The notes beneath the pieces are model-generated. The model worked only from the letters and a program-made list of their open reading frames with translations, was not told the DNA's origin and made no database searches. 64,000 nt of DNA, from contig NZ_CP018787.1 of the NCBI RefSeq assembly GCF_002127965.1, positions 1,054,001 to 1,118,000 on the forward strand, in the 5' to 3' direction. The stretch's first letter is position 1; the number at the start of each line of letters is the position of its first letter. A program made the position numbers and the translations under genes. This DNA is from Oxalobacter formigenes. GTDB lineage: Bacteria; Pseudomonadota; Gammaproteobacteria; Burkholderiales; Burkholderiaceae_D. Below are positions 58,878-59,883 of this stretch, piece by piece.

Positions 58878-59162
58878 TCAGGCGGAATGCAGGGAAGTGT
58901 ATGGCAGCAGGGCCAGGAAACGGGCGCGCTTGATGGCGGTGTCTACCTGACGTTGGTAATGTGCCTTGGTTCCTGTCAGACGTGCTGGCATGATCTTGCA
59001 GTTTTCCTGGATGAAATCTTTCAGGGTATCGATATCTTTGTAATCGATCTGTTCTACGCCTGCAGCGGTGAAGCGGCAGAATTTTTTACGTTTGAACAGA
59101 GGATTTTGCTGTTTGCGTTTATCTTTGTTTTTGTTCTTGTCAAATTTTTTACCAAATGCCAT
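58878..59162 (-). CDS. rpsR: 30S ribosomal protein S18
   Basis: 94 residues, slightly longer than E. coli S18 because of a basic N terminus ([18 protein letters not shown]) and a short C-terminal tail (SLHSA). Core motifs: [48 protein letters not shown]. It binds S6 on the platform of the small subunit. 29 bp after priB. Confidence 0.97.
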
Positions 59163-59191: not shown

Positions 59192-59494
59192 CTATTCAAT
59201 TGATGAAATGCCGGTTATGTGAAACACGAGACTTCTGCTTTTGGCGCTTTTCGTTGCCATGAATCCCTTGAAAAGATAGAAAGAATCGGAGGACAGTTTT
59301 TCGAATTCTTTTGAAATGTCGCCGATAGCGATGGCTGGCATTTCGAATTCCACGTTCCGGTTCGTTCCCGATTCCATTTGCTGCGAACGGTGCCAGAGTC
59401 TGGCGGAGATCACAGGAATGCCAGCTGGTGTATAACGGATCGATTCACGTTCTATCGGTCTGGCAATCAGATGAAAAAGGTTTTCAGGGTTCAG
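59192..59494 (-). CDS. priB: Primosomal replication protein PriB, apparent CTG start
   Basis: 100 residues if begun at the CTG at 59494. The sequence [20 protein letters not shown] then [19 protein letters not shown] and [16 protein letters not shown] is a PriB OB-fold. In this frame a TGA directly precedes the CTG, and no ATG, GTG or TTG occurs until the GTG at 59413, which would remove the first strand (27 codons). AGGAG at 59501-59505 is 6 bases before the CTG, ideal spacing. Thus either CTG is the start or the usual start was mutated. PriB helps reload DnaB at restarted forks. Position between rpsF and rpsR is standard. Confidence 0.85.
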
Positions 59495-59500
59495 TCAGGT

Positions 59501-59505
59501 CTCCT
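59501..59505 (-). promoter_or_regulatory. priB: Ribosome binding site deciding the priB start
   Basis: AGGAG read on the minus strand, 6 bases before the CTG codon at 59494-59492 and 80+ bases from the only later GTG. It argues that translation begins at the CTG. Confidence 0.7.
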
Positions 59506-59517
59506 GTCGGTTATCAA

Positions 59518-59883
59518 TCAGGCGGAAGCTTGTTCAGCAGCTGCTTTTGGAGCTTCTTCTTTCTGAGCCGATTTCATCATTGGAGAAGGACCGGTTTCAG
59601 CATGTTTCATTTTGACGGTCAGATGACGCAAAATGGCATCGTTGAATTTGAATGCGGTTTCCAGTTCGTTCAGTGTTTCACCGTCGCATTCGATGTTCAT
59701 CAATACGTAGTGAGCCTTGGCGAATTTGTTGATCATGTAAGCCAGTTGACGGCGGCCCCAGTCTTCGACGCGATGGATTTTGCCGCCGCGGGTCGTTACG
59801 CTGTTTTTGTAACGTTCGATCATGGCCGGAACCTGTTCGCTCTGGTCCGGATGAACGATAAATACGATTTCATAGTGACGCAT
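59518..59883 (-). CDS. rpsF: 30S ribosomal protein S6
   Basis: 121 residues: [56 protein letters not shown] and [15 protein letters not shown]-like core; Ala/Glu-rich tail ([14 protein letters not shown]). First gene of the operon with priB, rpsR and rplI; 23 bp before the priB CTG. Confidence 0.97.

Follow-up and report, generated by a model that had tools for sequence, protein, structure and literature searches.

The priB locus of Oxalobacter formigenes

We analysed a window of 64,000 nucleotides (the whole stretch of DNA under study; contig NZ_CP018787.1, positions 1,054,001 to 1,118,000) from the genome of the gut bacterium Oxalobacter formigenes, which consists of one contig of 2.47 Mb and has O. 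paraformigenes as its nearest match; a plasmid search gave no match. On the minus strand of the window, priB (59192..59494) lies between rpsF (ribosomal protein S6; 59518..59883) and rpsR (ribosomal protein S18; 58878..59162), followed by rplI (ribosomal protein L9; 58388..58840), which is the cluster position characteristic of PriB. The sequence and the listing of open reading frames give ATG starts for the three ribosomal protein genes. The coding sequence of priB comprises 100 codons and a TAG stop (59192..59194), and at its 5' end the minus strand reads AGGAG ACC TGA CTG AAC CCT GAA AAC. It thus contains an AGGAG Shine-Dalgarno sequence (59501..59505; anti-SD duplex energy -7.4), an in-frame TGA (59495..59497) that shuts the priB frame upstream and, abutting the TGA, the candidate CTG start codon (59492..59494), the sole plausible start past this stop. 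The first-pass annotation had placed the TGA at 59497-59495 and the first canonical start, a GTG, at 59413, with CTG as the first codon after the TGA, six bases behind AGGAG, and with 27 intervening codons that lack ATG, GTG and TTG and encode the conserved N-terminal part of PriB including RYTPAGIP; the minus-strand sequence agrees with each of these points, and from the in-frame stop to the conserved protein we found not a single canonical start.

Judged by its sequence, the 100-residue open reading frame is PriB, a replication restart factor whose biochemical hallmarks are single-strand DNA binding and interaction with PriA and DnaT. The product scored 86.6 bits against the NCBIfam model TIGR04418 (primosomal replication protein N; curated cut-off 72), aligning with model positions 1-95 of 96, and matched Pfam PF22657. 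PriB residue 5 corresponds to the first position of TIGR04418, and solved PriB chains (e.g., 4fdb and 3fhw) also align starting at residue 5.

The GTG at codon 28 (59411..59413) encodes the internal Val of RYTPAGIPV. A listing of open reading frames that admits only ATG, GTG and TTG returns a priB form of 73 residues beginning there, as had been predicted for standard gene callers, and a conserved replication gene is therefore at risk of truncation or omission wherever such callers are used. Although this GTG is the earliest in-frame canonical start, it is most improbable that translation begins at it to give a 73-residue protein, because the product would lose RYTPAGIP, which is kept order-wide and inside the solved PriB chains, and because the short form reached only 57.1 bits, under the TIGR04418 cut-off. 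The GTG also has no good Shine-Dalgarno sequence (anti-SD energy -2.2 ahead of GTG versus -7.4 ahead of CTG). Moreover, codons 1-27 differ between O. formigenes and O. paraformigenes by 6 synonymous and 7 amino-acid changes, proportions similar to those in the remaining priB codons (20 and 16, respectively), and the region therefore evolves as coding sequence. On the failure against TIGR04418, the coding-like character of codons 1-27 and the poor anti-SD pairing, we rejected a start at 59413. Frameshifting or read-through from rpsF, which ends at 59518, was rejected as well, because any ribosome that entered the frame of priB would halt at the TGA directly ahead of CTG.

Conservation of the CTG codon in Oxalobacter and across the order

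Codon positions in relatives were counted from the R of RYTPAG, which puts the CTG of O. formigenes at -19, and each Oxalobacter species was represented by one genome. Aligning relatives, as the first-pass annotation had proposed, revealed the same codon as CTG at -19 in three further Oxalobacter species, O. paraformigenes (PriB identity to O. formigenes 77%), G124 (49%) and G110, each with GGAG or AGGAG six bases before it. The four CTG species form one clade (support 99), and the remaining Oxalobacter on the tree start priB with TTG. G110 also has a GTG at -16, three codons after CTG, and CTG is the better start there because this GTG lies 15 bases from its Shine-Dalgarno sequence. In G041, which belongs to another genus of the Oxalobacteraceae, the gene opens with CTG AAT CCC GAA AAC, encoding the same LNPEN. 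A sequencing error at this codon, or a recent strain-level mutation of a canonical start, has almost no probability: CTG is a single base change away from ATG, GTG and TTG, but it is shared by the three further Oxalobacter species, whose genomes were assembled independently, and recurs in other genera, and we rejected a base error on the strength of these independent genomes. As a separate observation, the priB match in another Oxalobacter genome (L113/L114, G093:C1:2253040-2253328) consists of two segments that overlap but lie in different frames, which hints at a frameshift or an erroneous base in that sequence.

The wider comparison comprised 298 distinct priB loci, with E. coli kept apart. 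Among them, 64 have no canonical start within -25 to -12, a count that should not be read as a frequency, because the sample is enriched in CTG clades (additional members of two genera were fetched). At -16, preceding a nearly invariant Asn, the 298 loci carry GTG (68), CTG (47), ATG (15) and TTG (11); the other Leu codons are nearly missing from this position (CTC 1, TTA 1, CTT 0, CTA 0). In an order sample of 128 loci, drawn from the list of sequences similar to an Azonexus query, the inferred priB starts were GTG in 69, TTG in 38, ATG in about 9 and CTG in 7, with five unclear. CTG takes the place of the GTG or TTG of relatives in other genera of the Oxalobacteraceae, in Azonexus/Dechloromonas and in gut Zoogloeaceae, and in six loci (L041, L067, L073, L075, L155 and L158) an in-frame stop lies at most one codon ahead of the CTG.

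It is the codon that is kept at this position, and not merely the amino acid. Over four groups the start codon is CTG in 40/40 loci (19/19, 6/6, 11/11 and 4/4), whereas most conserved Leu columns inside the protein use more than one codon (every such column in three groups, 3/6 in the small Zoogloeaceae group), and CTG makes up 40% of the Leu codons in these priB genes overall. On a tree of rpsF, priB (start excluded) and rpsR from 138 loci, parsimony required seven changes between strict CTG and canonical starts, compared with 17-21 among the five shuffles listed. The CTG start thus appears to have arisen about five to seven times, a range chosen because the tree was built quickly from short proteins and has some weak branches. 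Taken together, the conservation at species level, the constant six-base spacing, the invariance of CTG and the repeated replacement of GTG or TTG by CTG at the start of priB support the initiation at CTG suggested by the first-pass annotation, and this codon is very likely the start of priB.

Two further features of the priB loci were recorded. In seven of them, Rhodocyclaceae-like and others (L040, L042, L068, L076, L032, L257 and L162), the expected start is devoid of ATG, GTG and TTG and mostly also of a well-placed CTG; translation might begin there at ATT, ATC or ATA, or at an upstream site. Furthermore, the codon preceding RYTPAG is most commonly TTG (100/298 loci, e.g., L046 and L116) and approaches fixation in the Azonexus group (18/19), versus a TTG share of about 21% among Leu codons across priB.

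Strength of the start and the level of PriB

In the order as a whole, priB avoids the strong start signals of its neighbours. The start is ATG in 287/292 rpsF loci versus about 9/128 for priB, and median anti-SD energies were -8.3 (rpsF), -6.6 (rpsR) and -3.0 to -4.3 (priB), all of these medians being approximate because the start calls rely in part on Shine-Dalgarno pairing. Within the O. formigenes cluster, the Shine-Dalgarno sequences of rpsF, priB, rpsR and rplI look similar, and priB stands out most clearly by its start codon. Local mRNA structure was considered as an alternative throttle, but predicted folding near the four starts showed no clear difference, apart from a somewhat more paired Shine-Dalgarno region in priB (unpaired probability 0.25 versus 0.35-0.41). 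Among priB genes, pairing is stronger at CTG than at GTG starts (p ~1e-9, kinship ignored), which is the pattern that compensation of a poor codon by good Shine-Dalgarno pairing would predict; non-AUG starts in general tend to have stronger Shine-Dalgarno sequences (PMC5622118). Expression from CTG about 10 times less than from TTG is cited in PMC11983097.

We propose that the 30S subunit would bind AGGAG, that initiator fMet-tRNA would read the CTG at 59494-59492, and that inefficient initiation at this codon would hold PriB well under the levels of the ribosomal proteins, whose genes are highly expressed. The CTG of Oxalobacter would then represent the extreme of an order-wide trend towards GTG, TTG or CTG as the start of priB, with ATG seldom used. 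The first-pass annotation had suggested such a throttle relative to the ribosomal proteins, and the order-wide avoidance of ATG in priB, together with a weak Shine-Dalgarno sequence unlike those of rpsF and rpsR, now lends it indirect support, while the throttle itself is still something we infer. The combined reading, that priB starts at CTG and that this weak start would throttle PriB, is very likely; that CTG throttles translation of priB because a low level of PriB has been selected is the more demanding claim, which we think probable.

The E. coli operon has the same gene order, rpsF-priB-rpsR-rplI, and has been described as an example of an open reading frame of low translation amid better translated ones (PMC5318159), with which a throttle on priB would agree. 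However, E. coli priB starts with ATG, and a weak start codon is therefore not the only route to setting the level of PriB. This ATG, and the wide variation of priB start codons among relatives, ATG included, favour the view that CTG is the start but that its weakness is unselected, little PriB being needed, so that poor starts are tolerated and the codon drifts among GTG, TTG and CTG. We consider this explanation possible though rather doubtful, because ATG is rare in priB (about 9/128) even though it is the most frequent start generally and genes throughout genomes are as a rule selected to start with AUG (PMC5622118), and because CTG is kept throughout whole genera and is paired with a stronger Shine-Dalgarno sequence than GTG. 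The excess of non-ATG starts could nevertheless in part reflect drift in a gene under little demand for strong translation, alongside the selected throttle that we prefer.

Near-cognate starts in other genes and in the same genome

Near-cognate starts as such are already known from infC, pcnB and the FIB replicon rep gene. One parallel to priB is the rep gene of the FIB replicon on E. coli plasmids, likewise encoding a replication protein, with a CTG start, a good ribosome-binding site and a GTG downstream at which it is commonly misannotated; changing CTG to CTC abolished its function, and the authors suggest that CTG provides just enough expression (PMC11983097). Unlike priB, rep is a plasmid gene and its start is experimentally proven, whereas priB is chromosomal, lies in the rpsF operon and has a start supported by comparison. 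The AUU start of E. coli pcnB was reported as limiting translation (Binns and Masters 2002, as cited in PMC9410913); it resembles that of priB in being a non-AUG start on the chromosome, but codon and gene differ and pcnB lies outside a ribosomal-protein operon.

Genes that start with CTG are very rare. A figure of 20 genes annotated with this start out of nearly 85,000 is quoted in PMC11983097, and another survey counted 2 switches to CUG in 61,358 ancestral AUG starts and 1 in 5,080 GUG starts (PMC5622118). A search of the literature on priB, primosomal protein and CTG starts, most subscription journals lying outside its scope, found no prior report of CTG in priB. What appears to be new, as far as sequence comparison indicates, is a chromosomal CTG start that is kept across species and was repeatedly gained in a gene family avoiding ATG. 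The series of priB genes with CTG, gained several times and kept over species and genera, offers a natural system in which to study the setting of protein ratios within an operon by start codons.

The AUU start of E. coli infC, which encodes IF3, is also chromosomal and limits translation, and IF3 discriminates against it (PMC9410913). It is a near-cognate start in a chromosomal gene, as in priB, but infC is under the control of the protein it encodes, whereas PriB is no initiation factor and the codon of priB is CTG. In O. formigenes, infC lies outside the window, on the minus strand (L306, G000:C1 near 2280686). Its first canonical start comes only at codon 56, after the conserved SHRLNGEI motif, and its start region reads GGGGA ATCAAG ATA GCT ACT, with ATA behind GGGGA. 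The codon is ATA in five Oxalobacter genomes, including O. formigenes, and ATC in one. Near-cognate starts therefore do occur in O. formigenes, and in the gene for which E. coli already provides an example. By analogy, CTG might render priB sensitive to IF3 in the manner of infC and make replication restart depend on translational state. We regard this coupling as unlikely, since priB shares only the class of its start codon with infC and most relatives start priB with GTG or TTG. A broader version, in which the priB start throughout the order (Burkholderiales in the broad GTDB sense) would be a selected rheostat that avoids ATG and so keeps translation of priB low within a ribosomal-protein operon, and independent moves to CTG in several lineages, including Oxalobacter, would in addition make PriB, and with it replication restart, dependent on IF3 and on the state of the initiation machinery, is offered as speculation that may well not hold. 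Gene callers restricted to canonical starts would truncate or miss the infC of O. formigenes.
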